Virus record (IMG/VR): IMGVR_UViG_3300017989_000003
Coordinates: 1 to 64,000 of that record
Strand: one strand, 5' to 3'
Length of the DNA: 64,000 nt
From: a virus
Positions within the stretch are counted from its first letter, which is position 1, and every line of letters starts with the position of its first letter. The position numbers and the translations under genes are program-made. Shown piece after piece: positions 6,410 through 53,584 of this stretch. The notes under the pieces were generated by a model. The model was not told where the DNA came from. It saw only the letters and a list, made by a program, of their open reading frames with translations, and searched no databases.

Positions 6410-6462
6410 AAATAACATGCGTTATTCAGTGGCTTCTTAATAATGAATTATAGGAGGTGATA

Positions 6463-8586
6463 ATGCCTAAGATAGACCCAGGCGTATACACCGAGACTCG
6501 AGATGAGTCTGAGTACGCTAATCTTGGTGGTGCTACTATTTTCGGTGTAGTAGGTACTGCCACAAAAGGTGAGATAAATAAACCTATCCTATGTTACGGG
6601 GAGCAAGACCTAGTTAACAAAGTGGGTTTACCTCTTACTTCTCTTCCAGATTATGCTGTTCAGTCAGCCATACAGTTTTTGCAGAGGGGTCAGATTGTTG
6701 CGTTTCTAAGGGTTGAGAGCGGTCTGACACCAGCTGTAGAGTCATCTGTGACAATAAATGACTATCCTTCTGATTCTTCTCCCACTGTTGACTTCGAGGC
6801 TATCTCTCCTGGAACATGGGGTGATGACCTAAAAGTTCAGATATTGCTTGAAGAAGATGATGAGTATAGTGAGGTTCTTGGTCAAGGAGATGGTATTACT
6901 ACTAATTTCCAATCTATTCCTGTTGCTAATATTAGCTCATTGACTAATTTCCCGGTTCTTCCAGGCACAGTTCAGATAAATGCTATTGTTGGTAGTAACG
7001 TAGTGGTATTTACTGACGACGGTCTTGGTAATTTAGCGGGTCCAGCTGTTGGTGATATAGGTACTGTTGATTATGAGACCGGTGACCTTGTGGTAGTTTT
7101 TGGTGGTAGTGGTGCACCTGATAACCTCACTGACATTACGGCTACATATCGTTCAGTACAGTACAACGAGACGTTTACTGCTACAGGTGGTGCTACAGTC
7201 CAATGGGACGAAACTCTTGCTGGAAATCCTGTCTTATCGTATGAAAATACCAACTTAATACAGCCTAACACTGTTTACGTGATGGGGAGTGATGGTGCTG
7301 GTGGTATGACTACGATAGGTGTCGACAATGGCGCTGGAGCGATAACTGGAACTAACATTGCTGCTGGAACCATTGATTACGTCACAGGAGCTATTTCAAT
7401 AACACTATTTCCAGCAGCTGCGTCACAACTTGTTGTATGCTACAGAGACCCGTATTTTGATGTGGCAATTCAAGCACTAGCTGATAGGTACGGCGCTGTT
7501 GCTGAAGTTGAAAAGTTTGAAGATGTCGTTATGGACTCTAATTCCGAAAGGTATATAGAGGACGTAATAAACGACGGTATTTCTGGAGAGATAGCTAAGT
7601 CAGCTTATGTGACAGCTACTGTTCCGTTAGTACCATCTGGGTATCAACCTATGTCTGGATTGTATGATTTAGCGGGTGGTGGCGATGGCACAGCTGGTAT
7701 CGCTGATGCGGATTACATTGGCACGTATGCTGGTGGTTCTGCAAGTGGACTTCAGGTTATGGCTAATCCTGAATCTGTAGTTATCGACTTATTGGCAGTT
7801 CCTGGAGTGTCGAGCGGCTCGGTTGTAAATGCAGGATTAGCTGTGTGTGCTGACAGAAAAGACGCTATGTTTATAGTAGACCCACCGTTTGGTTTAACTA
7901 CTACTGACGTTGCGAATTGGCACAATGGTATTGGGTATTCCCATGCTGCGTTTAACAATGAATACGGTATATTGGATTGGGCGTGGATAAAACGTTATGA
8001 TGCGTATAACCGTATGGATGTATGGCTTCCACCTTCGGGTTTTGCCGCTGCACAGATGGCGTACACTGATGAAGTTTCTTACCCATGGAATGCTCCAGCT
8101 GGTAGAAACAGAGGTGTGTTACGTGACGCTCAGGAAGTGGAATACTCTCCTACAAGAGCAGAGCGTATTATTCTGTATGGGCATCCAAACGCGATTAATT
8201 CGATTGTGGATTTCCAGAACACTGGAATTGTCATTTGGGGACAAAAAACACTTTATAGACGTAATACTGCGCGAAACCGCGTGAATGTTATGCGTATGAT
8301 GTGTTACATCCAAAGAAGTGTGGTCTCATCGTGTGAATATTTGACTTTCGAACAGAATGACGCTTTTCTGTGGGCTAGATTTAAGGCGCTTGTTGACCCT
8401 ATATTCTCTAGTATCAAATCGTCTGGTGGTTTAGAAGATTACACAATTATTTGTGATGAGTCTACTAATCCTCCTGCGGTTAGAGACCAGCTTGAAATGC
8501 ACGCAAGGGTCATACTTGTGCCGTTAAAGACTGCTGAGAAGATAGTCATTGAGTTTGTTCTTGAAGGTGCCGGCGCATCAGTTTAA
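6463..8586 (+). CDS. Contractile tail sheath protein with two inserted beta domains
   Basis: 707 residues; ATG 6463 follows a near-perfect Shine-Dalgarno AGGAGGTGA (6452-6460). The N-terminus PKIDPGVYTETRDES and GGATIFGVVGTATKGEINKP are classic sheath motifs. The C-terminal half shows the conserved sheath core (WAWIKRYDAYNRMDVWLPPS, then GRNRGVLRDAQEVEY, NSIVDFQNTGIVIWGQKTL and YIQRSV). Between them, residues about 140-330 hold two copies of a domain with a DDGxG...GTxDYxTG signature that also fills the baseplate proteins downstream. It polymerises around the tube and contracts on infection. Five tube paralogues follow. Confidence 0.95.
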   Translation: MPKIDPGVYTETRDESEYANLGGATIFGVVGTATKGEINKPILCYGEQDLVNKVGLPLTSLPDYAVQSAIQFLQRGQIVAFLRVESGLTPAVESSVTINDYPSDSSPTVDFEAISPGTWGDDLKVQILLEEDDEYSEVLGQGDGITTNFQSIPVANISSLTNFPVLPGTVQINAIVGSNVVVFTDDGLGNLAGPAVGDIGTVDYETGDLVVVFGGSGAPDNLTDITATYRSVQYNETFTATGGATVQWDETLAGNPVLSYENTNLIQPNTVYVMGSDGAGGMTTIGVDNGAGAITGTNIAAGTIDYVTGAISITLFPAAASQLVVCYRDPYFDVAIQALADRYGAVAEVEKFEDVVMDSNSERYIEDVINDGISGEIAKSAYVTATVPLVPSGYQPMSGLYDLAGGGDGTAGIADADYIGTYAGGSASGLQVMANPESVVIDLLAVPGVSSGSVVNAGLAVCADRKDAMFIVDPPFGLTTTDVANWHNGIGYSHAAFNNEYGILDWAWIKRYDAYNRMDVWLPPSGFAAAQMAYTDEVSYPWNAPAGRNRGVLRDAQEVEYSPTRAERIILYGHPNAINSIVDFQNTGIVIWGQKTLYRRNTARNRVNVMRMMCYIQRSVVSSCEYLTFEQNDAFLWARFKALVDPIFSSIKSSGGLEDYTIICDESTNPPAVRDQLEMHARVILVPLKTAEKIVIEFVLEGAGASV

Positions 8587-8600
8587 GAAAGAGGTGATTT

Positions 8601-9245
8601 ATGATGCCAGTTAGACTAGACGCAAGTCACTTAGGTACTTATGGCTCAAAGCAGACATTTGAACCTCAGCGTCAAAACAACTCGTTGTTGTTCTTAACTG
8701 GATTGCCAGCTCTTTTATCTGCTGGTGGTTTTGCAGCTAATCAGGACGCTGAAAGTATTATCGCTCTCAGTATTGATTCTTTCCCTGCTCCGAAGTATTC
8801 GAATAACATAATAGAAGTACCGTACAATAACATGCGAGTTAAATTTGCGGGTTCTATGATGTTCGAAGATATGGACGTGCAGCTTAAGGATTTTGTAGAT
8901 TCTGATACTGCGAAACTGTTACATCAGTGGAGACTGTGCTGCTCTAATCCTGTTAATGGTGCGGTTGGATTTGCGCGCGAATATAAGTTAAATGGAGTCT
9001 TTGTGGCGTTATACCCACCTGATGGACGACCTGATTACTTTAGGTATTTCCAGCTTGATGGTGTATGGCTTTCGAGACTAGACCAGGGTGATATTGACCA
9101 TGCATCTGACGACTATTTACGTATAATTGCCACACTTACGTGTGATAGAATTATACCTCTATTAGCTCTTGATGCTGGCGTTTCCCCAGAGAATGTCGGT
9201 GCTGGTAGTGGTTTTTCCACTCTAACTCCGCCTAAGACTCCATAG
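8601..9245 (+). CDS. Tail tube protein, paralogue 1 (probable main tube)
   Basis: 214 residues; GAGGTG precedes ATG 8601 and ATG 8604, and the second gives the better spacing. Motifs shared with the four following genes: FEPQRQN near residue 22, a DxQLKDFVDSDTAKLLHQW segment near 95, NPVNGAVGFA near 117, and a C-terminal YFQLDGVW...GDIDHASDDYLRI...CDRIIP block. This is the T4 gp19/contractile-tube family fold. Being first after the sheath and the most regular in sequence, it is the best candidate for the major tube subunit; the others may be tube ends or minor tube proteins. Confidence 0.8.
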   Translation: MMPVRLDASHLGTYGSKQTFEPQRQNNSLLFLTGLPALLSAGGFAANQDAESIIALSIDSFPAPKYSNNIIEVPYNNMRVKFAGSMMFEDMDVQLKDFVDSDTAKLLHQWRLCCSNPVNGAVGFAREYKLNGVFVALYPPDGRPDYFRYFQLDGVWLSRLDQGDIDHASDDYLRIIATLTCDRIIPLLALDAGVSPENVGAGSGFSTLTPPKTP

Positions 9246-9306
9246 ATGTATTAATAATGGGGGTTGGTTGACGCCAATCCCCTTATTCTTACTGTTAGGA
9301 ATGTTT

Positions 9307-10035
9307 ATGGGAAAGAAAGAAGTCGGTAAAGTTGGCGCTAAAACAAATTTTCCTCTAGTTGAAAGTCTGTTTTCGGCTAATTTTATTGGCGGCTCAGCGG
9401 TTAACAAACAAGATTATTACGGGTTTGAGCCACAGAGGCGTAATAATGGATTTTTGTTTGTTCCACTTCAAGAACTTAAGGGTATATCGGGATTTCCAGC
9501 ATATTTACCAGGTACTCTTGCGATGGCTCTTAAGAGTGTAGAATTACCGAAAGATGAAAATGAGATTATTGAGCTTGGGTATTTTAACCAAAAAAGGTTT
9601 TATGCTGGGCAACATAGGACACAAGAAATATCTATGGTATTTGTTGACTATGTTGATGTTCCCGTGGCTCACGCTTTAGAGTTTTGGAGAGCGACAGTCT
9701 ATAATGCTGTTAATGGTGCTGTAGGTTGGGCTTCTAGTAGCCCTAAGGCGATTATTCCATCTCTTGCTGGATACAAGCAAGATGTTTTTTTGATGACATT
9801 ATCACCGAATGCTGATTGGGTTTATTCTAAGATTTATATGCTCAAAGGTGCTTTTCCGTCGTCTATAGATAGAGGCGATATTGACTTTGCTGACGAAGAT
9901 ATATTAGAGATGACTTTAACTATCCACTACGACGAAGTTTTTTTGATATCACATGGATGGATACCTGAAATAGCACTTTATTACAATCCAATGACAGCTG
10001 GTGATATAGATATTAAACTTGAAATACCAACATAG
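9307..10035 (+). CDS. Tail tube protein, paralogue 2
   Basis: 242 residues from ATG 9307, which has TAGGA six bases upstream; the frame is open back to a TTG at 9268 but that start has no site. It carries FEPQRRNNGFLFVPL, then LEFWRATVYNAVNGAVGWAS, YSKIYMLKGAFPSSI and GDIDFADEDILEMTLTIHYD. The N-terminus has an extra lysine-rich 15 residues. It is one of five tandem tube-family paralogues, diverged enough to suggest a separate position in the tail. A GGGG/CCCC imperfect hairpin (9259-9282) lies between it and paralogue 1. Confidence 0.7.
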   Translation: MGKKEVGKVGAKTNFPLVESLFSANFIGGSAVNKQDYYGFEPQRRNNGFLFVPLQELKGISGFPAYLPGTLAMALKSVELPKDENEIIELGYFNQKRFYAGQHRTQEISMVFVDYVDVPVAHALEFWRATVYNAVNGAVGWASSSPKAIIPSLAGYKQDVFLMTLSPNADWVYSKIYMLKGAFPSSIDRGDIDFADEDILEMTLTIHYDEVFLISHGWIPEIALYYNPMTAGDIDIKLEIPT

Positions 10036-10042
10036 GCGTATA

Positions 10043-10759
10043 ATGACCTTACCTGTTCCAAGTAGAACACCAACGATGTCAGCTAAATTCTTAGGAAGTG
10101 CTCTAAGATATCGAGATGGTGCGCCTTATGGTGGAACTTTTCAACCTCAGATGTCTTATTTGGGGTTTGTATTATTTAGGTTTGATACATCACTTATATC
10201 AGGTTTTCAGGAGGCTGACAACAAGATAATATTGATGTCACTCGAATCTAGTAGCTTGCCTGAAATTGTAATTAATACGACTACTTTATCCTATAATAAT
10301 GAGCGGCGTAAATACCCTACGTCGGCTGAGTTTCCTGATTTTGAACTTACACTTAGAGATTTTGTGGACATACCAACGGCTAGGATAATTGATAAGTGGT
10401 TGTATCTTATTTACAACGAATATAATGGGGCTATTAATCCAAAGATAGCGTACCGTGTCAATACCTTTGTTTGTCTTATAGACCCTACAGGTAATCTCTC
10501 ACGGTATTATCGTATGATTTGTTTTCCAATAAGTGTAAATTTTGGAAATATTGATGGTAATTCTTCTGATTATGTTAAAATTAATGTAACGCTAGCTATA
10601 GATAAGCTATATCGGGTTCCAGAGGATGAGCTTAAAGACTGGGGTTTATCTGGTGCTGGAACATATCCCAATAGTAGGGATTTTAATTCTCGAAATATTA
10701 CCCAGCCTATAGACCTTGGTAAAAAGTTAAAGGTTGGTTTCAACAAACAGGCGTACTAG
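10043..10759 (+). CDS. Tail tube protein, paralogue 3 (most diverged)
   Basis: 238 residues from ATG 10043, with ATAGGCG upstream. The tube motifs are weaker: FQPQMSYLGFVLF in place of FEPQRQN, LTLRDFVDIPTARIIDKW, NEYNGAINPKIAY, YRMICFPISVNFGNIDGNSS and DYVKINVTLAIDKLYRVP. A C-terminal tail of about 40 residues is unique to this copy. It could be a tube-terminator or baseplate-proximal ring rather than a shaft subunit; this is inference from divergence. Confidence 0.6.
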   Translation: MTLPVPSRTPTMSAKFLGSALRYRDGAPYGGTFQPQMSYLGFVLFRFDTSLISGFQEADNKIILMSLESSSLPEIVINTTTLSYNNERRKYPTSAEFPDFELTLRDFVDIPTARIIDKWLYLIYNEYNGAINPKIAYRVNTFVCLIDPTGNLSRYYRMICFPISVNFGNIDGNSSDYVKINVTLAIDKLYRVPEDELKDWGLSGAGTYPNSRDFNSRNITQPIDLGKKLKVGFNKQAY

Positions 10760-10768
10760 GAGGATTTG

Positions 10769-11395
10769 ATGACTACTCCAAGCAGCATAGAATTTCACGC
10801 AGACTCCTTTATTAAGGAAAGAGAGTTTGAGCCACAGCGTCAGAATAGTGGGTTTTTATATGTTCCATTAATAGATGGGATTGTGATAAATGACCCTAAA
10901 GTGTTGGCGCTAGCCATAGATACGTTGCGTCTTCCGTCTTATGGCACAGAGGATATCCAAGTAGGTTATTTTAATGAATTTGTTAGCTTTGCTGGGAAGT
11001 CTGTGTTTGACGATATTGACATGACTATAAAGGACTTCGTTGATGGTGACGGTATGCTTGCCATAGACAAATGGTTCAACCAAGTGTATAGTCCAGGTAA
11101 TGGTGAGATGGAGATGGCGTATACTATTAAGAAAGATGCATATGCTGTTATATACGACACAGCAGGTGAGAATATGCGGTATTATCTTCTCAAAGGATGT
11201 TTTCCGTCGCATATAGCTCGCGGTGATTTAGACCAGAATACGTCTGACTATGTTAGAATTACAGTAACTTTCTCTGTGGATAGGGTTGTGCCGTGGTTTA
11301 TGGAAGGTAAACTTGGTAGTGGAGCAGCTAAATACCTTCCTGGTGGAACATCACCATTAAATTTAACTGACGCAGTTAGTAAATTAACTAAATAG
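10769..11395 (+). CDS. Tail tube protein, paralogue 4
   Basis: 208 residues; ATG 10769 is preceded by AGGAGG. Shows REFEPQRQNSGFLYVPL near residue 18, DMTIKDFVDGDGMLAIDKW, SPGNGEMEMAYTIK, YYLLKGCFPSHIARGDLDQN and DYVRITVTFSVDRVVPWF. Together with paralogues 1 and 5 it retains the full signature set of the tube family. Spacing to paralogue 5 is 7 nt, so the group is probably co-translated. Confidence 0.7.
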   Translation: MTTPSSIEFHADSFIKEREFEPQRQNSGFLYVPLIDGIVINDPKVLALAIDTLRLPSYGTEDIQVGYFNEFVSFAGKSVFDDIDMTIKDFVDGDGMLAIDKWFNQVYSPGNGEMEMAYTIKKDAYAVIYDTAGENMRYYLLKGCFPSHIARGDLDQNTSDYVRITVTFSVDRVVPWFMEGKLGSGAAKYLPGGTSPLNLTDAVSKLTK

Positions 11396-11402
11396 GTGTA
11401 GT

Positions 11403-12026
11403 ATGACGATACCATTAAGTGCTGATTTTCTCGGCAAGTATTCAACAACTGGTAAAGTAACACGAGAACCACAGCGTACTAGTGTTGGCACAATATACGT
11501 TAATTTTAACGTATCTGTCATGAACTTTAGCGAGATTATACGTTCGAGTTTATCTAATCCAGAGATTATGTTGGCTATGTCTATAGATTCATGTAATCTC
11601 CCAGGCTACGGCGTTGAAGTCATAACAATGGGGTGGTTTCTTGAGACTGTTAAGTTTCCAGGAAAGGCTATTGTTGATGATACTAACTGGGTACTTCGAG
11701 ACTTTGTTACAAGTGACGTGGCTGATATTTTAGATGCGTGGTGGGCTATGACGTTTAACCCATTAAGTGGCGCTGCGCATAAAGCGGCTAAGTACAAACA
11801 ATACGCATATGTTATGTTGTTTGGAACGGATGGCGAGATTGATAGTAATCGATGGTATAGGCTAGAAGGTTGCTATCCGTCTAGAATTGAGCGAGGGGAT
11901 ATTGACCATACTGGTGGAGACTACGTTAGGATAACCGTGTCGTTAAAAGCCGACAGGGTTGTTCCTTTAGTATTTGAACGTACTGGTGCTGACGTTGAGA
12001 GGGGTTTACCAACCCCAACTAAGTAA
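11403..12026 (+). CDS. Tail tube protein, paralogue 5
   Basis: 207 residues; ATG 11403 has TAGGTG upstream. Motifs: REPQRTSVGTIYVNF, TNWVLRDFVTSDVADILDAW, NPLSGAAHKAAKY, YRLEGCYPSRIERGDIDHTG and DYVRITVSLKADRVVPL. It ends the five-gene tube array; a 149-nt gap follows before the gp26-like gene. Confidence 0.7.
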   Translation: MTIPLSADFLGKYSTTGKVTREPQRTSVGTIYVNFNVSVMNFSEIIRSSLSNPEIMLAMSIDSCNLPGYGVEVITMGWFLETVKFPGKAIVDDTNWVLRDFVTSDVADILDAWWAMTFNPLSGAAHKAAKYKQYAYVMLFGTDGEIDSNRWYRLEGCYPSRIERGDIDHTGGDYVRITVSLKADRVVPLVFERTGADVERGLPTPTK

Positions 12027-12175
12027 TAATAAAATAGTCCTGGACGCATTTGCTGACGGGATAGAGGGCTTTAGGTTCAGCCCAGTTAGAGTAAATCTTT
12101 AACAAACATACATTTTTGCATGAGAATCATCCTATAACGGCTCATAAGAGTCAAATAAGTTGAAAGGAGTGTGTT
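12027..12175 (+). other. Intergenic gap with small hairpin, before the gp26-like gene
   Basis: This 149-nt gap is large for the window. It holds a short hairpin, GGGCT (12066-12070) with AGCCC (12079-12083), and a TTTTTGCAT stretch like those seen in other gaps. A strong ribosome site (AAAGGAG) precedes the next ATG. No convincing -35/-10 pair was found. Confidence 0.35.
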
Positions 12176-13432
12176 ATGACTAAAGGTAGTAGACCTAAGA
12201 AAAGACGTCCTTTATCGAAAGGAAATCCCGAGCAAAGTGTTCCTAAATCATTTCCTACTGTAATAGGTTCTGAGAAGGCTAAAAATATACCTCCAGAGCT
12301 TATGGAGCATCTAACAAACATGGGTGCTTCCAGAGAAAGTTTTGTCCCACCGTCTGCGTCACCAATCCCACCTATTAGGGGTAAAAGACCAAAAGTTAAA
12401 GTGTCTTCGAAAGTTACTGATGTAACAGGTGATGTTCCTGGTAATGTTAGTAACATTACTGACGAAATTCCCGCAAATGATTACGTTGAACAGGATGAGT
12501 ACGACGAGAGCGCAGAAGATGATAATTACGATTATCAATCGCAACCACCTATTCAACAACCACCTATTCAACAACCACCTATTCAACAACCACCTATTCA
12601 ACAACCACCTATTCAACAACCACCTATTCAACAACCACCTATTCAACAACCTGTATCTTACGTGCAGCAGAAACCAGCACATATACGAAGATTTGTTGGG
12701 CAGTTACCGTCAAAAGGTATTCCATATCGCAGCGTAGGTGCTTATGTTGATGGTAGAATAGATATATGCCCTATGACCACGAAGGAGGAGTCGTTATTGT
12801 ATTCTCCTGGTGACTCGTTGGCGCATATCAATAAAATATTGGACAGTTGCATTGTTGATGACGATAAGGCTAAGCTTAGTCCTATTGACTTAACAATAAA
12901 TGACAGATTTGCTGTACTTCTTTATATCCGAACATTTTCTTATGGCTCTGAATACGAAATACCGTTTACGTGTGCTTCATGTAATTACTACAACCCAAAA
13001 ACAATTATAGATATATCGTCTGATTTATCTATGAATTTTATGGACGAGGATGCTGAAGAGCCGTTTGAAGTTGATTTACCACGTTCTGGTGATTACATTC
13101 ATTTTAGGCTATTGCGTGGTAGAGACGAAGAGACTATCGCCAAATACGCCAAAAGACTCAAGATGCAGTCTACTGACGAAGGTGACCCTTCAAATATTTA
13201 CCGTTTGGCGTTATCCATTGTAGGTATTAATGGTATGGAAGTATCTGACTTCGACGCAAAAGTTGAGTACGTTAAGAACATGATTGCTGGTGATGCTAAT
13301 ACGTTGCGTCTAGCAATTCAAAATGCGGATGGTAGAATTGATACTACGTTGTTTATTGATTGTCCTGCGTGTGGTTTTGCGAACAGATTCGAGATGCCAT
13401 TTACTGCTGAATTTTTTCGCCCATCTAGGTAG
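12176..13432 (+). CDS. T4 gp26-like baseplate/tail assembly protein with Zn ribbon and PPIQQ repeats
   Basis: 418 residues; ATG 12176 after GAAAGGAG. Residues 1-120 are basic then acidic and probably disordered. Residues about 124-158 are seven perfect PPIQQ units. From about 180 the sequence matches the T4 baseplate protein family (Pfam T4_baseplate): LPSKGIPYRSVGAY, then ICPMTTKEESLLYSPGDS and LIHINK-like helices. CASCNYYN near 263 and CPACGFANR near 402 form a CxxC pair consistent with one zinc site. Members act during baseplate hub or tape-measure assembly rather than as major structure. The frame ends at TAG 13430-13432 and another frame runs across this stop. Confidence 0.65.
   Translation: MTKGSRPKKRRPLSKGNPEQSVPKSFPTVIGSEKAKNIPPELMEHLTNMGASRESFVPPSASPIPPIRGKRPKVKVSSKVTDVTGDVPGNVSNITDEIPANDYVEQDEYDESAEDDNYDYQSQPPIQQPPIQQPPIQQPPIQQPPIQQPPIQQPPIQQPVSYVQQKPAHIRRFVGQLPSKGIPYRSVGAYVDGRIDICPMTTKEESLLYSPGDSLAHINKILDSCIVDDDKAKLSPIDLTINDRFAVLLYIRTFSYGSEYEIPFTCASCNYYNPKTIIDISSDLSMNFMDEDAEEPFEVDLPRSGDYIHFRLLRGRDEETIAKYAKRLKMQSTDEGDPSNIYRLALSIVGINGMEVSDFDAKVEYVKNMIAGDANTLRLAIQNADGRIDTTLFIDCPACGFANRFEMPFTAEFFRPSR
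12545..12649 (+). repeat. Seven perfect 15-nt tandem repeats (PPIQQ)
   Basis: CCACCTATTCAACAA is repeated seven times with no base change, encoding seven PPIQQ units inside the gp26-like gene. Identity at synonymous positions points to recent slippage or unequal-recombination expansion, so the copy number may vary between relatives. It lies in a low-complexity linker between a charged N-terminus and the folded domain. Confidence 0.95.
13412..13418 (+). promoter_or_regulatory. Possible +1 (or -2) frameshift site
   Basis: TTT TTT C is read in the gp26-like frame just before CGC CCA TCT AGG TAG. A +1 slip of the phenylalanine tRNA from TTT to TTC moves the ribosome into the overlapping frame, which is open across the stop to 13640. 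No good start codon with a ribosome site exists for that second frame. This is a hypothesis from the sequence arrangement. Confidence 0.3.
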
Positions 13433-13457
13433 TAATGTCGGAGATTTATTCGACCAA

Positions 13458-13640
13458 GTGTTCTTTTTGGTGTATTATGGAAAGAATTACGACTATACTG
13501 CCGTTATGGATATGCCAACTGATGAGCGCATATGGAACATACAAAGATTACATCACCAACTAATGGAAGAGAAAAAAGCTCATGAGGAAGCGATGCGCGA
13601 GGCGAAAAGAAATAGTGCAAATAGACCTAGAAGAAGGTAG
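13458..13640 (+). CDS. Short protein following the gp26-like gene (possible frameshift extension)
   Basis: The frame is open from 13323 to TAG 13640. The plausible protein part begins around 13440 and has the look of the short ORFs that follow gp26-like genes in other myophages: FFLVYYGKNYDYTAVMDMP, then DERIWNIQRLHHQLMEEKKA and a basic tail. If independently started, GTG 13458 (60 residues) is the best codon; GGAG at 13440-13443 is 14 nt away, which is long. Alternatively it is made as a fusion by frameshifting at 13412-13418. A role as tape-measure or hub assembly chaperone is inferred from its position directly before the tape measure. Confidence 0.55.
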   Translation: MFFLVYYGKNYDYTAVMDMPTDERIWNIQRLHHQLMEEKKAHEEAMREAKRNSANRPRRR

Positions 13641-13660
13641 AATAGATGTATTGATAAAAC

Positions 13661-13710
13661 GTCAAGGGGTTTTTTGCAACCAGTAACGAATTACCCCTTG
13701 ACGACAACTG
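13661..13710 (+). repeat. Dispersed palindromic element, copy 2
   Basis: Arms GTCAAGGGGT (13661-13670) and ACCCCTTGAC (13692-13702 region) enclose TTTTTGCAACCAGTAACGAA, followed by GACAACTGTAG. The left arm has lost the AATT extension present in copy 3. It lies in the gap between the short gp26-associated frame and the tape measure gene. No T-tract follows, so it is not a standard intrinsic terminator. Confidence 0.9.
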
Positions 13711-13726
13711 TAGTTGAGGACGTGTA

Positions 13727-16700
13727 ATGGCTGACATAATATCGCTATCATTAAAGCTAGACGCAGTAGACGCACTAAAATCAATACAGTCTTTTACAAA
13801 GACGATAGAAGATGCAGCTAAATCATGGGATAAGGCTATTGACAAAGCTAGTAAAAATATCGACGAAAAGTTATCAGAAATGACGGACTCTATAAGCAGT
13901 TTATCGAAGGAGATTGACGTAAGTGTCGCAGTAGGGGAAATTAAGGTCGATGATAGTTTTGATAAAGCTCTTGAGTCATTCTATAAAAATGTAAAAAACC
14001 AAATACAACAAAAAGTTAAAACGGTATCTGCTGATATAACTACACCGTTAAAAGTTAGGGTGTCTTCATTATCAGGTAATATCGAGGATGTTATCGTGAG
14101 TGAAGTAGCTGATGCTGTCGCATTAGGAGTACGGAAAGCTCCGATTGGTGGTATTGGGATAGGTAATGCTGCACAGGAGTTAACTACTCTGTTGTTGGTT
14201 ACGTTACCTAGCGTCATAAACAAAGCGGTTTCTAATATAGGAAGCGAGATAGCTAATAGTATTAAGCCTATCACTGATGCTGTGTCAAATTTGCCTAAAG
14301 ACCTAAGTGTAACATTAGATTTATCTTCATCGATGGCGTCGATAAGGGACGAAATACAGCGTGAGCCCATAGACACTTATTTACGGGTGGTATCTGTTAC
14401 AACAACTAGTGATTTTACGCCTAGTGGAACTAAAGGCGCTGGCACTGGTGAGGGGGCTAGAATTAAAATCCCAGCGGCACTTAAAGTAGTAACTATAGTG
14501 GGTTCACCTATAACTGTTGATGCTAAACTTAACATAAAGGGTTATAATCCTAAGACTCTGAATATTGACGTAAAAGCTGCGGTGGATTTAAAATTATCTA
14601 ATGTAAATGATTTAGATGCGTTTGTTAAGAGTATTCAGGATAGCTTAACTGTTCAGTTGGTTGTGGATGGGTTTATCCCTGCCTCTGGTAAAACGTGGGA
14701 AGATTTTGCTGGCGAGATATCCAAAAAGTTACCAATATACCCATTAATTAAAGGTTTCGTAGAGGAATGGACGGAGTCAGATTTACCTAAAGTTCCAGAA
14801 TTACATGCCTGTATAAAAACTATTGATTTACGTCCTGACTTTAAGGCTCCAAAGGTAGATGAATACCTGAATGAGCTAAAGGCTAGTATTAAAAAGTTTG
14901 ATGTGACTAAGACAGTGATTAAAAAACTTACGTCTGATATATCTGATAGTCCAGATTTTGCTCCAACTATTAAGGATATAAAATTTGACTTAAGTGACGA
15001 CGTATTGTCTAACTTGGAATATGACCTAGAATTTATTATGTCTAATGTGGCTGTGTCACTTGAGCAGGATTTACTGGACGTACTAGGTAAGTTTCAGCTT
15101 AAGCTTATCGACCATGTAGTTGAAGGTATAGATTTAATGTCTAAGGAGATTGATGCTGTATTACAGAAAGAGCGTCATATTCCTACGGTGAAAGCTCAGG
15201 CTGGTGGTGGAGCTTTCACTCCTATAGATATCACTGATACTATAAAGGACGCAGTTACTAACGCCATTAACTCTGTGAGAACTACTAGTAAGGACATAAG
15301 TAAAGCTTCGCTAAAAATAGCGAAGGACGTTACAGACGAAGCTGTCAAAAATATTAGTGGTATTGATGTCGATAGACTTGTTGATGTACCGCATGAGAAG
15401 TTATACAATGCCATGCGTGTTTCTGAGGATGCGATAGTAAAGAGTGGAAAAGCTCATACTGAGTCTATATCTAGAGGATTAGGTAAGGTTGGAGATTTTC
15501 TAAAAGATGTGTTTATATCACCTAAGGTGAAGGATATTATCCGAAAAGGATTATCCACCGAGACACGTATTAAGGATTTGTCTGAAGTTTCAGATACGAT
15601 AGACAATATTGTAAAAGGGCTTTCTGATGAATTTGGGGATACTAAAGAGGCGTTAAGTAGTATTTCAAATAGTATTAAAAAGGCTAACGAGGCGGCTAAA
15701 GATGCTTCTAGCCTCTTTACTAAACCAGAGGATGTTGTAAGCGGTTTTGCTGATGCCTTTAATTTGATGAAGGAGTCTGGTGATTTAATGTCGAAGGAGA
15801 TAGTTAAATTACCAATGACTGATTTTAGTAAGGCGTATGACTCGCTTTTATTGTTGCAGAAAAACATCGATGAGTTTTCCGGCATCCAGGAAAAATTCTC
15901 AGGTATTCCTGAATTTCAATCTCGGATGGAAAAAGCTCAGATTATGATGGGTATGGTTGGAACTAACCTTGCAAATACGATTGAGGCGTTTGTACAAAAT
16001 ATAGAGAGTATCCAGGAAGGTTTGCCATTAGACGCAGATTTGTCAGAAGTAATAGCTTTGGAGTTGGAATCAATAGGCGACAAACTTAGAGACGTGTCCA
16101 TAGTTATTCCAACTGGCGTCGATGCTCCAGCTGTTCGTGATTTTATGGAGAGTCTTGACTACCTGTCGGTGGTGTTACAAAATGCAGGTGATGGCGTAGA
16201 GACTGTTGGGTTACAAGGACTGTCTAAAATAAGCTCGTCTATTAATACAGTGTTAAAGCAACTTGAATACAGTTCTGGGTCAGTTAACGACTATATAGAT
16301 GCAATGAATAGGGCATCTGTATCAGTTGGTGCTGTGCCCCCACAACATCAGGATGTTTTGACAAATACTATAATGTCGATGAAAAATGCGGTAGGCAGTC
16401 TTAAAGCTCTAGGTACTACGTCTGGTATAGTGTCTGGTACTTTTAAGAGTGTAGCTAACATAGTTAAGAGGTCTGGAAAGAAAATTGACTCAGCTTTTGG
16501 TAAATTATTAAAGTCTGGTCTTGGGCTTCTTGGTGGTTTTAGTTTAATACGTACGATGGTTCAAGGAATTGACCGAGAGTATAGAGCGGCGCAATTAGGT
16601 GCTGCTGGCGGTATGTACCAGCCAGGTAAAGAAGCATGGTGGCAGCAATTTAGAGGCGCTGCTATAAAGGGTCTTACCGAAGAAGAAATATCTGAAATGT

Positions 16701-19221: not shown

Positions 19222-19230
19222 GAGAGAGAG

Positions 19231-21961: not shown

Positions 21962-21963
21962 GT

Positions 21964-22947: not shown

Positions 22948-22957
22948 AGAGGTTAAA

Positions 22958-23329: not shown

Positions 23330-23331
23330 AT

Positions 23332-26300
23332 ATGACGTTACCTACTACACTTGATTACACGGCTCGAGATTTTGACTCAATAAAAATCTCGTTGGAAAAT
23401 TATGTTAGAGCCACAGAACCCACACTGTGGACTGATTTCTTTGAAAGTAATTTGGGTGTTTTACTCATAGATTTTAATGCGTATGTGGGCGATATTGTGT
23501 CATTTGTTGCTGATAGAATATCAGAGGAAGTGTTTCCTGTTACAGCCAAAAGGCGTAATAGTCTCATAAAATACGCGAGAGGCGTGGCGTATTCACCGCA
23601 AGGTTCGTCTCCGTCGACTGTTCGCGTAGTTGCGAATAATGACTCTATACCATCTACTTTTAGTACACAGGGTCTGTTGTTTTATGCAGGTACTGTTTTT
23701 ACGGTAGATGAGGTTACGTTTGAGTTAATTAAGGACTACTATTTTCCTGCACTCACTAATCCAGTTGAGATGGATTTTACGTCGGGTCTGTCTGACGCTG
23801 AAACTTTTATTGCTGATGGTAGACAATGGCAAGAATATACTGTTGAAGTTGACGACGTGATAAATGATTCATGGAAAGTATTTGTGGATGGAATCGAGTG
23901 GGATTTCGTGGATAATTTGCTTTTTTATGAAGCTGAGCGTGTTTACGAAGTAGTGTATGAAGACGACGGTAGTATTACCGTTAGGTTTGGTAATGGCGTT
24001 CATGGTCTTATTCCTGCTTCTGGTTTATCTGTTGAAATACGATATAGGTATGGTGGCGGAATAAGTGGTAATATTGAATCTAGGTCAGTTAACACGACTA
24101 TTACTGGATATTTCGATGACGGCAGTTCCGCTTCTATTAGCATAAATAACCCGAATCGTGCTTCAGGCGGCGAAGACCCTGAAACTATTGAACACATTAA
24201 ACAATGGTTGCCCGGTTGGATTAAATCTAACAATAGGGCTGTGTCTGTTGAAGACTATATGACATTAGTTAATAAATTTACAGACCCTGATTATGGTTCT
24301 CCATATCGTGCTAATGCTCGGTTACGTATTAGTGGTTTCGGTAACATAATCGGTGGTATATACCTAGAATCTGCATTGATGCCGTATGTGGAGTCATCTT
24401 CGTTTGAGATATTTGCTGTTGGTGATGGCTCCACTACTAATTTTACTTACAATACATTACAAAAACCTATAGTCCCGTATACTGTTAGAATTACGGGTTA
24501 TTTGACCTTTGGTTTTCCGCCAACTACTGTTGCGTTTGAGGTGAGGGATGATGGGCGTGGTGGACTTGAGAGTGATTATATTATAGGAGGCTCAGTGGAC
24601 TACGATAACGGTATTATACAAGTTAGTTTTCGAACTGGTAATGCCCCTGTAGCTTCTGCTGGGATTTCCTTATATTACGAATTTTCTCCAGTGTCAATAA
24701 CAGGTGTTAACAGGTACGACTATTCCCATTTGCTAGGAATAGGTGATGGAATAGTTACGGCGTTTAGTGACACTATTATAATACCAACTAGTTTATTAGT
24801 ACCGAATGAAGATGCTTATTTGTTTTCGTCTATTAACGATTTTGGGATAAGGTTGAAAACTGTGTTGGACAATGCAGGTACTGACATTCCGATTGACCTT
24901 TTTGACGGCTCTTTAACCGTTCCAGTAACTCAACCTGTTGGTACATTTACGGACTTAACTGGTGCCCCAGACCCAAATGTGATATCTAGTACGATAAATT
25001 ATGAATCTGGGTTTATATCAATAACATTCGCGCATCCTGTAAAACTAGATGAGGGAATTAAAATATACTTCACAGCGTTTAATTTTAATTGGGATGAAGG
25101 CGATGGTATTAGCGTGGCATTTTCAGGTTATGTCGGTGAGGACATAGTTCCAGGAACGTTGCGAGTGCATCTAGTTGTAGGTACAACTGATATATTTATC
25201 CGTGATAATCTAGTGGCTGGTGTGTGGTCTCTAATAGTGATAAATGCGGCTACTGGGGTGTCTGTTGTTACATCTGATATAGATTATGATGCAGGATATT
25301 TGTCATTCACACTGTCCCATCCACCGGATAATCTTACGCTAGTTTCGTTAGCGTATAGAACTGCCGCCGAGGTTACTGACTTGCCTTACGGAGTTATGAA
25401 CTTTGTGACTGCTATAGATAGTACTACGGGAGGTCTTGATAACGCTGGTGTTTACCAGTGGTTATCTGATAGGTGGAATTTACTTGTAAAACAGGGTGAA
25501 TTTGATTACGCTCTTCCTGCTAACGTTGTTGACCTGTGGCTATGGTCACAGGATACCGATGGGTATTTAGCGTTTGCGTCTGAAGGTCTTATAGATGCGG
25601 TGAGGGATTGGTTACTTGATTATGAGATTTCGACTGTGCAATTGAATGTAGAGTCAGGATTACTACAGCCGTTTAATATAGACATAGGAACTGTGTATTA
25701 CGATAAACAGTATGAGGTTAATGACATTCGGATTGACATACAAGAAGCTATTCGGCAATTGTTAACGTCAGACGCCGTGTATCCTGGTGAGGAAATTACA
25801 GTATCTGAATTATATAGTGCTATTTATGACGTTGAGGGTGTGTTGGGGTTCAAAATGTTGTCTCCAACATCTAATATATCGCTATCGAAGAATGAGATGG
25901 CTTCTTTTGGTAAAGTTGAACGTTATGACACTGGGGTTAAGGGTCTTCCGTCAGAGCAAACTATTGGTTATGGTGACCCTAGTATCCCAACTTTAGTGTT
26001 TTCATCAACTTTGTCAGGGGTTGGAGCATCTAATAATGTCATTGAAACCGCTAATTCTGTTATTGTCGAGACGTATGTTGTAACTCCTACTGGTATAGAA
26101 TTCAGTCAGGCAAAAAGTATAGTAGGGGCTGTTCCTGGTGTTATGGAGTTTGTAAATACTGTTGGTAATTACGTTGATACCTTAGCTGCTAATTCGTATG
26201 TTAATGTATCCACTGGAGCTATTCAGGTAACATATAATGGTGGAAATCCTCCAGATACTGATGTGGCAGTGGTGGTAACATATTGGACTGAGCATTTTGT

Positions 26301-26610
26301 CGTAATAAGTCAACTTATGTACTATCCTGTAACGGGTGGTACTGTAAGATTAGAATTTGGAGATTTGCTTATTGTAGATGACGGTGCGGGTAATCTTGTG
26401 TCAAATCAAGTTTCGGGTTCGATAGATTATGATACTGGTGCCCTAAAATTTGATTTTAATAATGACACATTATCTATACCACCACCTATTGACGGTGAGT
26501 CTCTTTTAGCTACGTATAATTATACATATAAGGCTAATTTTGTGCCTTTGGTGAAAGGAAGTGTGACTGACAAGATGGGTTATTGTCCTGATTGGGACTG
26601 TCCAGATTAA
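23332..26610 (+). CDS. gp6/J-like baseplate wedge protein with repeated beta domains
   Basis: 1092 residues; ATG 23332. The N-terminus (LDYTARDFDSIKISLENYV, then ESNLGVLLIDFNAYVGDIVS, ISEEVFPVTAKRRNSLIKYA) and GNGVHGLIPASG with GGEDPETIEHIKQWLPGW identify the baseplate J/gp6 family. From about residue 364 to 690 three copies of the DDGxG...DYxTG domain interrupt the usual order; the rest of the J core (VNVESG-type strand, DIRIDIQEAIRQLL, ISELYSAIYDVEGV-like) follows. Two more copies close the C-terminus. The result is much longer than typical gp6. The role is wedge ring formation around the hub. Confidence 0.85.
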   Translation: MTLPTTLDYTARDFDSIKISLENYVRATEPTLWTDFFESNLGVLLIDFNAYVGDIVSFVADRISEEVFPVTAKRRNSLIKYARGVAYSPQGSSPSTVRVVANNDSIPSTFSTQGLLFYAGTVFTVDEVTFELIKDYYFPALTNPVEMDFTSGLSDAETFIADGRQWQEYTVEVDDVINDSWKVFVDGIEWDFVDNLLFYEAERVYEVVYEDDGSITVRFGNGVHGLIPASGLSVEIRYRYGGGISGNIESRSVNTTITGYFDDGSSASISINNPNRASGGEDPETIEHIKQWLPGWIKSNNRAVSVEDYMTLVNKFTDPDYGSPYRANARLRISGFGNIIGGIYLESALMPYVESSSFEIFAVGDGSTTNFTYNTLQKPIVPYTVRITGYLTFGFPPTTVAFEVRDDGRGGLESDYIIGGSVDYDNGIIQVSFRTGNAPVASAGISLYYEFSPVSITGVNRYDYSHLLGIGDGIVTAFSDTIIIPTSLLVPNEDAYLFSSINDFGIRLKTVLDNAGTDIPIDLFDGSLTVPVTQPVGTFTDLTGAPDPNVISSTINYESGFISITFAHPVKLDEGIKIYFTAFNFNWDEGDGISVAFSGYVGEDIVPGTLRVHLVVGTTDIFIRDNLVAGVWSLIVINAATGVSVVTSDIDYDAGYLSFTLSHPPDNLTLVSLAYRTAAEVTDLPYGVMNFVTAIDSTTGGLDNAGVYQWLSDRWNLLVKQGEFDYALPANVVDLWLWSQDTDGYLAFASEGLIDAVRDWLLDYEISTVQLNVESGLLQPFNIDIGTVYYDKQYEVNDIRIDIQEAIRQLLTSDAVYPGEEITVSELYSAIYDVEGVLGFKMLSPTSNISLSKNEMASFGKVERYDTGVKGLPSEQTIGYGDPSIPTLVFSSTLSGVGASNNVIETANSVIVETYVVTPTGIEFSQAKSIVGAVPGVMEFVNTVGNYVDTLAANSYVNVSTGAIQVTYNGGNPPDTDVAVVVTYWTEHFVVISQLMYYPVTGGTVRLEFGDLLIVDDGAGNLVSNQVSGSIDYDTGALKFDFNNDTLSIPPPIDGESLLATYNYTYKANFVPLVKGSVTDKMGYCPDWDCPD

Positions 26611-26624
26611 TAAGTGTCAATTTT

Positions 26625-26680
26625 GTCAAGGGGTAATTTGCAACCAGTAACGAATTACCCCTTGACGACAACTGTCAAGG
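26625..26680 (+). repeat. Dispersed palindromic element, copy 3 (most complete hairpin)
   Basis: Perfect 14-bp arms GTCAAGGGGTAATT (26625-26638) and AATTACCCCTTGAC (26653-26666) enclose TGCAACCAGTAACG, followed by GACAACTGTC. A second smaller pairing, GGTAA-type against TTACC, is possible in related copies. It fills the gap between the gp6-like and gpI-like genes. There is no poly-T tail. Confidence 0.95.
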
Positions 26681-26686
26681 ATTGCT

Positions 26687-29600
26687 ATGTTAAAGATAGA
26701 AGTTACAACGCCAAACGTAGTAAATAACGTAGTTTTCGGAGAAAATGTTGAGTTATCGTACTTATTATACGATGCCTCATACAGTCTTTGTGATTTGTCT
26801 GTAGAGTATAGCATTAATTCAGGTCTTACGTGGAATGCTTGTACGCCAAATTTACTAAATCCTTTGCATGAGAATCCAGCCAATTTAACCTCGTCTCCGT
26901 CAGGTGTTAAACATTTTTTCGTATGGGAGTCTCCGACTGATATACCTAGTACCGGCTCTGTTAGGATTAGAATTCAAGCTACTAATTTACCTAGTAATCA
27001 GGCTATAACTGACTTATTCCAAGTTGATAATATACACGCTATTGTGTTGGTTGCAACACCCGATAAATTACAGACAGGTAGTTTTACTATTGGCTATACT
27101 GTATATAACTATTCTGGAGATGACGCTGATATTGTTTGTTATTACTCAAAAGACGGAGGCTATAACTGGTGGGAAGCTAAGGAAGATGTGAGTATTGGCG
27201 ATGGAGTTGAAAATTTAAGTACGTCTGTAGATGGTGATACCCATTTATTTGGGTGGGATAGTGCTGAGGATATTCCTGTTGGGTCTGTATATGTTAAAAT
27301 TGAGCCCTCTAATTCGAGTACATCCGAGATTGGGTATTCTGGCTCATCTGAAGAATTTTTTGTAAATAATACGACTTCTTGGCTTGAGAAGAAAGTACCA
27401 TTTACATTATTTGCTCTTGACCCTGATGATGTACTTAAATTCTACATTAATATATTGGACTTTGAACGGGCGCATAACACTGAGATAACCACCTCACTAA
27501 TAGAGCTTTTGGACCCACTAAAATGCCCTGAACAGTATTTGAATGTATTAGGGGATACTCTGGGGGTGAGACTAGACGGTGAAGCTCCAACTGATATAAA
27601 ACGTAGGCAGATAGCGTCTGCGGTATTATGGTACAAAGAAAAAGGTACTTTATCAGCGTTCGAAGCATTTTTCATGACATTGGGTTATAAAATAGATGTG
27701 TACGAAGTAACTACGGATGGTAAAGATTGTGATACTGATTTTGTAAGTAGTAATTGGTATAAGACGGCTAGACTTAGACTAACGTTTCTAAAGTATGATG
27801 ATGACGCATGGATAGAGCCATGGGAAACAGAAGAATTGATGTCGCTTCTTGAGGAAGTTAGACCAATTCATGACCTTATAACAACATATAACTGGGGATT
27901 TGATTTTAGCGAAGTACTCTTGTTTGATGATGATAACGAAAAAGACGTGCTTGTAGATAGATTGAGTTACATAGCAGACGAGTGGATTAACCCACCTTTG
28001 GAGATAGAGCTATTTGATGCATGGTTTGGGGATGGTATTCTGGCTACGTTCGCTGGTATAATACCATTACCAGCTGGTGTACAAATTTTACCTGAGTCAC
28101 TCCAAGTGTTTGCCACTGGTGTTGGTAATCAGCCAATGATTGGTACTGATGACGGTCTTGGTATAATTGATGGGGCGTATATAATAAACGGAACTATTGA
28201 CTACGTCACTGGGTCGATTTTTGTACTATTTGGCGTTGCTCCAGATATTGGGGCTGAGGTTACTATAAAATATTCGTTGGATTCGTCTTATTACAGTTAT
28301 CCGATTGATGCCCCCCATCATTACTACACTAGAGATGGAAATTCGTTACTTGTTCGCGATAGGGCGTGGTTAACGCAAGTAGCTCCGTTTGACGTGACTG
28401 TTGGGGTTATTGATAGCGTAGGAACGCTTTTACCTGCTACTGCTAGTAGAATGGGGGTATTGATTGATATATTTCAAACTAGCTCTAATCGTAAAGTAGC
28501 CACTGTCTGTGAATATGATAACGGTAATTTACGTAATGTCGAGAATGTCATCCATAATGACATAAACGATTATTTACTATTAGCGAATACTGTTGGTGGT
28601 GTCCCTGTTTATGGCGGAAACTTAAATAACAATGTTATCCCAAGTTCTGTAATCATGTCTATAGATGAGTTATGGGCGTATGATGACGGAAATGGGGTCT
28701 TATCTGGCTCTGGTAACATAAGTGGTGTACCTACAGATTTAACTGGTACTATTACGTATGATACAGGAGCTATTTCTGTTACGCTTAATCCTGCCCCTGG
28801 TGTTGCCGGCATTCCAATAAATATAAATTACAAAACTTACGAATATTTTGTTACAGGTACTGGTGGAGCTATGCCTGCGGTGTTGTACACCACAGATTTC
28901 ACAAATATAGAGCCAGGAACGGTGAGAATATTTTCTCGGGACGGAGAGTTGGCTTCAGATGATACGGTAGGCAACATAACAGGCAGTGGAATCACGGGTA
29001 CAATAAACTACGCTACTGGTGCGATGAATCTTAGTTTTGCTTCATCCGTGCTAAATTGGAATTATGGAGTCCAATACCGTATTTATCCATTACGTGTTGA
29101 TGAGGGTTTATCGAGACTTAACCGGGGTATGCAGAGTGTTATAGCTACAGGAGATGGTGTTTCAACTATATTTCGTTCTACGCTTGACCCTAATGGAGTT
29201 CCAGTCTCGCTAGGGAGTTTATTATCTCCAATACCTATACTTCCAGGTTCATTTTATGTTAAATCAGCTCTAAATTCTGGAAGGAGTGATACTACACAGC
29301 CTTTTGGTAACGTAGTTGGTAGTATAACTGGGACAATCGAGTGGTCGTCAGGATTCTATGAGTTAGTATTTGCAGTAGCCCCAGCTGACGGTGAGGAAAT
29401 AGTAGCGGGATGGGAGAGTAACTACCTTAATTTGGTGTTTGAGCAACCATTCGACCAAAGTTTGTACAATGTACAAGTACGTAATTCGTGGAATACTATT
29501 GATAGTAATTATGACCAGGCTAATAGTCATCATTACACTCGCGATAGCTATAATTATTCATACTCGAAGCCGTTTATAGGGCGTGAGGGTCACGCTCATA

Positions 29601-30010
29601 ATATAGGAATTGGGGATGGTTTTACTCCTTTGTTTACCGGAACATTACCGAATACACCTGTTTTGCCGAATTCTGTGACTGTATTAGTTTGGTGTGAGAA
29701 CAAACAAATGTTACCTCATCAGTCACTTATTCCAGTACAAGTTTTAGCCTATGATGATGGCGCGAATAATATTATTGGAATGGACGATGACCTAGCGCCT
29801 GTATGGGGTACAATAAACTATTTGACGGGTGCTATCACTGTTAATTTTAGTTTTGGTAATATGTGCGTACCAATTTCTGGAGCTAATGTCGTGGTACATT
29901 ACTCGACACAGGTTGACGGAGCACTTCAGGAAATAGGGTGGAATCACTGGAAGAAAAAAGGAAGTAGATTATCCATTTTACGTAATTCAGTTTTATTCTA
30001 TAATGGGTAG
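26687..30010 (+). CDS. gpI/gp7-like baseplate protein with Ig-like and repeated beta domains
   Basis: 1107 residues; ATG 26687. Residues 1-230 contain two Ig-like modules (VEYSINSGLTWNACTP; IVCYYSKDGGYNWWEA). Residues about 235-420 match P2 tail protein I: EITTSLIELLDPLKCPEQYL, NVLGDTLGVRLDG, DIKRRQIASAVLWYKEKGT and SAFEAFFMTLGYKIDVYEV. From about 445 to the end are five copies of the DDGxG...DYxTG domain. P2-type gpI links wedges to fibres, so the C-terminal domain array may form an extended arm; this is inferred. There is no visible enzymatic motif. Confidence 0.8.
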   Translation: MLKIEVTTPNVVNNVVFGENVELSYLLYDASYSLCDLSVEYSINSGLTWNACTPNLLNPLHENPANLTSSPSGVKHFFVWESPTDIPSTGSVRIRIQATNLPSNQAITDLFQVDNIHAIVLVATPDKLQTGSFTIGYTVYNYSGDDADIVCYYSKDGGYNWWEAKEDVSIGDGVENLSTSVDGDTHLFGWDSAEDIPVGSVYVKIEPSNSSTSEIGYSGSSEEFFVNNTTSWLEKKVPFTLFALDPDDVLKFYINILDFERAHNTEITTSLIELLDPLKCPEQYLNVLGDTLGVRLDGEAPTDIKRRQIASAVLWYKEKGTLSAFEAFFMTLGYKIDVYEVTTDGKDCDTDFVSSNWYKTARLRLTFLKYDDDAWIEPWETEELMSLLEEVRPIHDLITTYNWGFDFSEVLLFDDDNEKDVLVDRLSYIADEWINPPLEIELFDAWFGDGILATFAGIIPLPAGVQILPESLQVFATGVGNQPMIGTDDGLGIIDGAYIINGTIDYVTGSIFVLFGVAPDIGAEVTIKYSLDSSYYSYPIDAPHHYYTRDGNSLLVRDRAWLTQVAPFDVTVGVIDSVGTLLPATASRMGVLIDIFQTSSNRKVATVCEYDNGNLRNVENVIHNDINDYLLLANTVGGVPVYGGNLNNNVIPSSVIMSIDELWAYDDGNGVLSGSGNISGVPTDLTGTITYDTGAISVTLNPAPGVAGIPININYKTYEYFVTGTGGAMPAVLYTTDFTNIEPGTVRIFSRDGELASDDTVGNITGSGITGTINYATGAMNLSFASSVLNWNYGVQYRIYPLRVDEGLSRLNRGMQSVIATGDGVSTIFRSTLDPNGVPVSLGSLLSPIPILPGSFYVKSALNSGRSDTTQPFGNVVGSITGTIEWSSGFYELVFAVAPADGEEIVAGWESNYLNLVFEQPFDQSLYNVQVRNSWNTIDSNYDQANSHHYTRDSYNYSYSKPFIGREGHAHNIGIGDGFTPLFTGTLPNTPVLPNSVTVLVWCENKQMLPHQSLIPVQVLAYDDGANNIIGMDDDLAPVWGTINYLTGAITVNFSFGNMCVPISGANVVVHYSTQVDGALQEIGWNHWKKKGSRLSILRNSVLFYNG

Positions 30011-30028
30011 TATATACGGGAGATAAAA

Positions 30029-31174
30029 ATGCAAAGAGTAAACAAAGTAGTAGACTATATTCCATTCAGGGGAATTTTCGAAATTCTTAGGTACAAAGAG
30101 GATGGTAAGACGTTACTACATAAGCCATACCGTGACCCTAACACAATTGTTAATATAGGTCGACAGTTTATTCGCGGTATGCTGGCATCATCATCTACAT
30201 GGAGTAATTTTCCTACTGTAGGAACCTCCTGGGGAGATATGCAGCCATTGGCTAATAACGATTTATTCATAAGTCGTATGAAGCTGGGTATGTCTTCGAT
30301 ATCTGCGTCTCCAGTTGACGAAGAACTTATATCACCTATAGGCGATAATATAGCTAAAGAGAATCTCGCTACTGGTGATGGTGCCACAACGGTGTTTGCT
30401 CCTGCTGCACTTGTTGGCGCTCCTGTTCGGAAGACTTTAGTAATATCAACTTGGGTTAGGTTAACTGCTACAGTAAAAACGTATCTTTATGCGGTGGATG
30501 ACGGCAATGGTAATATTTTTGGCAGCAAAGATGTGTTTGTAACTGGTACTGGTTGGGTATCGACTTCTGTAACAGGAACTATTGATTACACGACCAAGCT
30601 TATAAACTTAACTTATTCCCATGCTCCATGGGCTGGTGATAATATCGATGTGACATATGAGACAGCAGTTACAGCTGTTGACGTATTTGCAGCCGGAGGT
30701 GTTTCTTATAGTAATAATTTCGGTGTTTTACCTATTGGTCATAGGTCGCTTACTATTGTGGCTTCTGGCGGTGGTGGCGGTGGTACTGTAGGATTCGCAT
30801 CTGACGTAGGGTCAGGTATTATCCAGGGAACGTTTTTAATAGGCGGTGTGACACTAGTTAATGTTACTGGAACTATAGAGTACACAACTGGTTCGTTGGT
30901 TCTTAACTTTTCTGTTCCGTTACCGCCAGGTGTTAATTTCGCATTTGGATACCGTGTTGACTGGTCTCATTCTGTATCGACTTACTTTCCTAGTCCATAT
31001 ACCGTAAGGTTTGAAGTCACATTAGGGGCTGCGGACTTTGCTGGCTATAGATTTGCGGAAGAAGGTATTTTTACGGATTCTACGCTAGACTTAATGCTAG
31101 CTAGAAAAGCTTTTACGCCCTTTGAAAAGGGTGTTGGTGAGATAACTGTGTTTAGACATTCTATTCTGTTTTAA
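30029..31174 (+). CDS. Tail/baseplate-associated protein with two copies of the repeated beta domain
   Basis: 381 residues; ATG 30029 after GGGAGAT. The N-terminal 110 residues (VNKVVDYIPFRGIFEILRYK, NTIVNIGRQFIRGMLAS) are unlike known families. Two repeated domains follow, with VDDGNGNIFG...GTIDYTT near 155-200 and SGIIQG...GTIEYTTGSLVLNF near 265-295. The last 70 residues (TVRFEVTLGAADFAGYRFAE, then FEKGVGEITVFRHSILF) resemble phage tail or fibre-attachment ends. Placement between gpI-like and fibre genes suggests an adaptor for the fibre. Confidence 0.55.
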   Translation: MQRVNKVVDYIPFRGIFEILRYKEDGKTLLHKPYRDPNTIVNIGRQFIRGMLASSSTWSNFPTVGTSWGDMQPLANNDLFISRMKLGMSSISASPVDEELISPIGDNIAKENLATGDGATTVFAPAALVGAPVRKTLVISTWVRLTATVKTYLYAVDDGNGNIFGSKDVFVTGTGWVSTSVTGTIDYTTKLINLTYSHAPWAGDNIDVTYETAVTAVDVFAAGGVSYSNNFGVLPIGHRSLTIVASGGGGGGTVGFASDVGSGIIQGTFLIGGVTLVNVTGTIEYTTGSLVLNFSVPLPPGVNFAFGYRVDWSHSVSTYFPSPYTVRFEVTLGAADFAGYRFAEEGIFTDSTLDLMLARKAFTPFEKGVGEITVFRHSILF

Positions 31175-53582: not shown

Positions 53583-53584
53583 TT

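Follow-up and report, generated by a model that had tools for sequence, protein, structure and literature searches.

A β-sandwich module related to the P1 capsid I-domain recurs in capsid, sheath and baseplate proteins of an uncultivated phage

The first 64,000 bases (hereafter the window) of the 155,386-base uncultivated virus record IMGVR_UViG_3300017989_000003 encode a tail sheath and baseplate proteins in which one segment of about 90 residues seems to return repeatedly. An earlier note, made from the sequence alone, took it for a β-rich domain present in 14 copies and pointed to active duplication. Do these segments form one family, what is that family related to, and how did it come to occupy so many structural genes? 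We find a single family, present in capsid, sheath, gp6-like, gpI-like, p381 and p456 proteins and homologous to the I-domain, the part of P1-type gp23 capsid proteins that juts outward, with the fold predicted for one copy.

A profile hidden Markov model (HMM) of the module was seeded with six copies picked by eye and iterated over every open frame of 60 residues or more in the full record (654 frames). The search converged on 16 placements, all on the plus strand: five each in a gp6/J-like wedge protein and a gpI-like protein, two each in the sheath and in a 381-residue protein, p381, and one each in p456 and a gp23-type major capsid protein (MCP) (Table 1). With each protein in turn excluded from its own model, 15 of the 16 copies scored between 20.7 and 62 bits (E 2e-5 to 2e-18), against 9.0 bits for the highest decoy (200 shuffles and a reversal per protein); the fourth gp6 copy was not significant. 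An external model, composed only of modules from other phages, returned the 15 copies at 13.3-71 bits and gp6 copy 4 at 4.4 bits, with a top decoy of 5.7 bits, a test that is not fully independent because those modules had been found with the first model. The repeat is real: 13 of the 14 copies claimed in the earlier note are recovered at 20.7-53.0 bits, with decoys at or below 9.0 bits. The fourth gp6 copy, at decoy level, is doubtful, and the modules of p456 and the MCP come in addition; the phage carries 15, perhaps 16, copies.

The first gpI module, the only copy folded alone, was modelled with high confidence by AlphaFold2 from a 90-sequence alignment and comprises seven strands (predicted local distance difference test (pLDDT) and predicted template modelling (pTM) scores in Table 1). 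Searched against BFVD with Foldseek, this model retrieved a tail sheath at rank 1 (E 3e-6, template modelling (TM) score 0.86) and MCPs at ranks 2 and 3, the TM scores spanning 0.72-0.86. Such recovery of both sheath and MCP domains bears on whether the copies are convergent look-alikes, that is, β domains of separate descent that happen to have the same turns (DDGxG ... GTIDYxTG). Conservation does cluster in two hairpins, and convergence of short β-repeat motifs is feasible; the held-out matches, however, span most of the ~90 positions at 20-62 bits, and together with the fold matches they largely refute convergence, to which we attach hardly any credence.

Among PDB sequences, the 90-module profile had a single significant match, residues 208-294 of P1 Gp23 (E 5.1e-6; next match 0.32), and no sheath protein was among its matches. 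P1 Gp23 also ranked first of 350,542 PDB chains in a Foldseek search with gpI module 1 (probability 0.98, E 0.079, TMq 0.54). The I-domain of P1 Gp23 (PDB 9ukm, 9vl4) is β-rich, extends outward from the capsid and touches the P-domain of the adjacent capsomere, a contact with neighbouring capsomeres that is reported to stabilise the P1 shell (PMC12810830). The MCP of our phage also bears the module, at open-frame residues 173-258, with T4 gp23 aligning on either side; the module thus interrupts an HK97-type MCP at the place of the I-domain. The tail-protein copies are relatives in other host proteins: whereas the domain of the P1 paper belongs to the capsid, here it also occurs in the sheath, the gp6-like and gpI-like proteins and two further proteins.

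The sheath carries its two modules as an insertion between conserved halves. It matches PF04984 and PF17482 above their curated cut-offs, has T4 gp18 as its best match by fold (Foldseek E 1.4e-31), and its profile aligns over the full length with T4-type gp18. Module-free homologues (comparators of about 500 residues) align on either side of residues 133-345. In one of these, L150, residues 1-122 and 138-493 are matched by residues 3-132 and 346-708 of our sheath; since both flanks align, about 200 residues here occupy the place of about 15 there. The block measures ~6865-7446, within a few residues of the 6880-7455 proposed earlier. The L022, L029 and L081 sheaths have one module each, at the position of module 1, and module 2 is extra here. 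In a model of the full sheath, the core has pLDDT >90 and part of module 1 is fair. On gp18 the modules map close to residues 103-182, the region of domain I, the outermost domain. Extra β domains in the sheaths of large phages likewise lie away from the tube (PMC9230969), and our sheath, gp18-like over its full length, resembles both in having inserted β domains, which would lie away from the tube. With domain I the comparison is nevertheless one of position and not of descent, as profile searches of the PDB brought up no sheath protein and hence no sequence homology to it. In the gp6-like protein, the modules come after a homologous core, residues 1-316, defined by blastp to gp6-like proteins. 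Near the sheath gene, a 240-residue protein (window 1011-1733) has a weak HYDIN/ASH-type immunoglobulin-like (Ig-like) match (PF22544, E 3e-4, below cut-off), an unrelated Ig-like element.

Building an HMM and searching phages with it, as the earlier note had suggested, recovered one family both here and elsewhere, and the same module occurs in the same kinds of protein in other phages. At least 119 viral-contig stretches match a degenerate DNA pattern for the module motif and, with related loci included, at least 123 loci bear module matches. Clustered with modules masked, the host proteins among the matches listed comprise gp6-like wedges (43), gp23-type MCPs (26), gp18-type sheaths (18), SU10-adaptor-like proteins (15), PHROG_6128 proteins (11, each ~1200 residues long and with at most five copies), and Tail_P2_I-like and other proteins; families were assigned from one or two representatives per cluster, and the counts are not frequencies because the search pattern favours strict-motif copies. 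The idea that sheath and baseplate proteins share one family holds, and the family reaches wider than proposed, to the MCP and, in other phages, to an adaptor-type protein. The profiles of PHROG_6128, a phage protein of unknown function, and PHROG_1014 both match the module; after masking, however, PHROG_6128 proteins cluster on their own and not with the sheath, gp6 or gpI genes. Sheaths gathered by module-blind core patterns carry the module at 19 of 74 loci, several being duplicates of contigs already in the set.

Five cultured phages, Listeria LIS04, Bacillus SP-15, Xanthomonas phiXF1, Vibrio 1.031.O and Escherichia IME392, have exactly one copy each, always in a gp23-type MCP, and the module profile found none in their sheath or baseplate proteins (50-kilobase regions and whole records). 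Of the whole records searched, four (G001-G003 and G012) have a copy within or beside the gp23 match. The J and I proteins of LIS04 and SP-15 gave no detectable BLAST match to the gp6 or gpI protein of our phage, tblastn of the entire gpI-like protein and of its first module found no match in cultured phages, and a single-sequence sheath scan of viral contigs matched only the same phage (L015). One or two modules are also present in open frames of ~1,965-2,666 residues from Verrucomicrobiota and Akkermansiaceae assemblies (L224, L229-L232), most of which reach the end of their stretch; the module therefore also occurs outside the phage virion proteins named here.

How the copies accumulated can be judged from their relationships. 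Recent duplication in this phage lineage, with one founding module copied repeatedly into neighbouring structural genes, would account for copy number, as our record has the most matches of the 18 whole records searched, namely 16; three others have 7-8 and the remainder 1-6. It would also suit the MCP module and sheath module 2, which share 81% DNA identity over 53 nucleotides (E 9e-10) and have in common a peptide, GTNIAAG, that every other module of the set lacks; this patch hints at a possible trace of recombination between head and tail genes or of recent exchange. The copies as a whole point the other way. Their pairwise protein identity reaches at most 38% (median 26%), and on a tree of 111 modules they do not cluster, the 16 requiring 15 label changes against a mean of 15.1 for shuffled labels. 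With identity this low, own copies no closer to each other than to those of other phages, and positional counterparts of sheath module 1 elsewhere, the active duplication suggested in the earlier note is unsupported, and a recent origin within the lineage strikes us as highly improbable. Starred branches force at least two changes each for MCP and sheath modules. The tree has few columns and 8 of its 108 branches are well supported, so it speaks against a recent burst but cannot give the history, and leaves room for old duplications. Since many other uncultivated phages bear the module, it looks like a standard exchangeable part of the virion surface, not the outcome of a recent bout of copying.

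What, then, might the module do? Across 90 modules, the conserved positions are alternating strand hydrophobics and two turns (DDGxG and DYxTG), with their Asp, Gly, Tyr and Thr residues, and none of the exposed surface is evidently conserved from one host protein to another, exposure being deduced from secondary structure and not computed. Conservation at core and turns speaks for a common fold more than for a common binding face and lends no support to the docking function suggested in the earlier note, and the sequences would fit an exchangeable outer-layer fold better than a shared receptor site. On balance, we think it probable that the module is one β-sandwich family of ~90 residues, homologous to the I-domain, that serves as an exchangeable outer stabiliser or spacer and has long been spread by exchange and old duplication, as opposed to recent amplification here. 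Each copy would be a building block placed at an exposed loop of a virion protein, a placement that may leave lattice, tube or wedge contacts untouched. It would act mainly by packing on a neighbouring subunit as the P1 I-domain does, and might secondarily adhere weakly to surfaces.

Several points weigh against a stabiliser or spacer. The role would be transferred by analogy from the P1 capsid to tail proteins; the fold match to P1 (Foldseek E 0.079) carries weight only jointly with the profile match; sheath module 2 is modelled below pLDDT 50 in the full sheath model; and p456, whose gene has metabolic and DNA genes around it, is perhaps no virion protein, which suits such a role poorly. Adhesion could moreover be the primary function. 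The modules would then form an array of Ig-like carbohydrate- or surface-binding domains through which the particle would bind weakly to cells, mucus or sediment, and because the affinity would belong to the whole particle, capsid, sheath and baseplate would carry them alike. The identifiable virion hosts are all expected to have exposed surface, adhesion has been proposed for Ig-like sheath domains (PMC9230969), and the very long Verrucomicrobiota frames bear the module too. Yet the 90 modules have no evident conserved surface or binding residues, their conservation lying in core and turns, and neither the profile nor the Foldseek searches gave a significant PDB match to a binding module, which makes adhesion a doubtful main role. 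An outward-facing stabiliser or spacer is our best reading of a function that we infer throughout.

Neither sheaths of large phages with extra β domains nor promiscuous Ig-like domains are new. Like the Ig-like domains exchanged among phage virion proteins (cited in PMC9230969), the module is a promiscuous β domain of capsid, tail and baseplate; unlike them, the module-bearing regions have no match to a curated Pfam Ig-like family at E 0.1 or better, so that the module appears to be a separate, unnamed family. A limited search of open-licence literature found no description of a family that joins the modules of sheath, gp6, adaptor and gpI proteins at sequence level to the P1-type capsid I-domain, and on one module common to capsid, sheath and baseplate it returned only general Ig-like work and the P1 structure. 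The family links by sequence domains that are now treated apart: the capsid I-domain, extra sheath domains, gp6-like C-terminal modules and adaptor domains. We speculate, as a long shot, that many large phages share a distinct, widely exchanged virion-surface family to which the capsid I-domain, the sheath domain located where T4 has domain I, and domains of baseplate and adaptor proteins would all belong, our phage lying near the upper end of copy number. Matching modules on head and tail might then let adjacent virion parts, or particles, pack like-with-like. Assembly of the phage outer layer from exchangeable parts becomes a testable question, and because homologues of the same sheath exist both with and without the module, the effect of the module is measurable.

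Table 1. Module copies and the genes that carry them (window coordinates unless marked as record coordinates).
Feature	Position	Strand	Evidence
gp18-type tail sheath gene, 709 aa, two modules between conserved N- and C-terminal parts	6457..8586	+	PF04984, PF17482, phrog_23, PDB gp18 homologues, Foldseek T4 gp18
Sheath module 1	6871..7152	+	held-out HMM 53.0 bits; same-place counterparts in L022, L029, L081 sheaths
Sheath module 2	7168..7446	+	held-out HMM 40.6 bits; missing from L022/L029/L081 sheaths; DNA similarity to MCP module
gp6/baseplate-J-like wedge gene, 1092 aa	23332..26610	+	phrog_219 6e-35; TIGR02243 below its cut-off; blastp to gp6-like proteins
gp6 module 1	24406..24681	+	held-out HMM 35.7 bits
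gp6 module 2, longer loop	24727..25074	+	held-out HMM 24.3 bits
gp6 module 3	25087..25359	+	held-out HMM 25.0 bits
gp6 module 4, doubtful or degenerate	26008..26286	+	held-out HMM 5.7 bits (decoy level); external model 4.4 bits
gp6 module 5, short first strand	26293..26520	+	held-out HMM 29.7 bits
gpI/Tail_P2_I-like gene, 1107 aa, five modules in C-terminal part	26687..30010	+	PF09684 8e-12
gpI module 1 (structure-predicted copy)	28016..28276	+	held-out HMM 47.6 bits; AlphaFold2 pLDDT 96.0, pTM 0.83
gpI module 2	28574..28834	+	held-out HMM 20.7 bits; external model 42.5 bits
gpI module 3	28844..29065	+	held-out HMM 34.1 bits
gpI module 4	29135..29416	+	held-out HMM 26.1 bits
gpI module 5	29597..29905	+	held-out HMM 35.9 bits
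p381, 381-aa protein, two modules	30029..31174	+	phrog_5417 at residues 322-379
p381 module 1	30359..30661	+	held-out HMM 48.7 bits
p381 module 2	30683..30955	+	held-out HMM 24.4 bits
p456 module, absent from the earlier list (gene 53564-54934)	54476..54721	+	held-out HMM 33.3 bits; external model 49.5 bits
gp23-type MCP module, absent from the earlier list	record 153859-154116	+	MCP = PF07068 4e-39, phrog_138

The p456 protein (window 53564-54934) has a zinc-ribbon-like N-terminus (CPNC...CC), and the remainder had no family match in profile library searches; its gene neighbours are nucleotide-metabolism and DNA genes. Elsewhere in the record (128190-129263), a 358-residue open frame contains a half-module-like stretch, VIDYESGSVTFSSSQSGKTVTAIYSY, which matches the external model weakly (9.4 bits, E 0.04, against decoys of 5.7 bits).

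Among other genes of the window, five consecutive ones (8601-9245, 9268-10035, 10019-10759, 10766-11395 and 11403-12026) are mutual paralogues, with 27-38% identity and E values down to 1e-42. The first of them (8601-9245) matches tail-tube families, and as a tandem array of tube-like genes the set is unusually long. The protein encoded at 12176-13432 has a short PPIQQ tandem repeat in its N-terminal half. Lastly, a 539-residue open frame at 51404-53023 appears by eye to combine a putative ThyX-type thymidylate synthase N-terminus with an unrelated C-terminal part.

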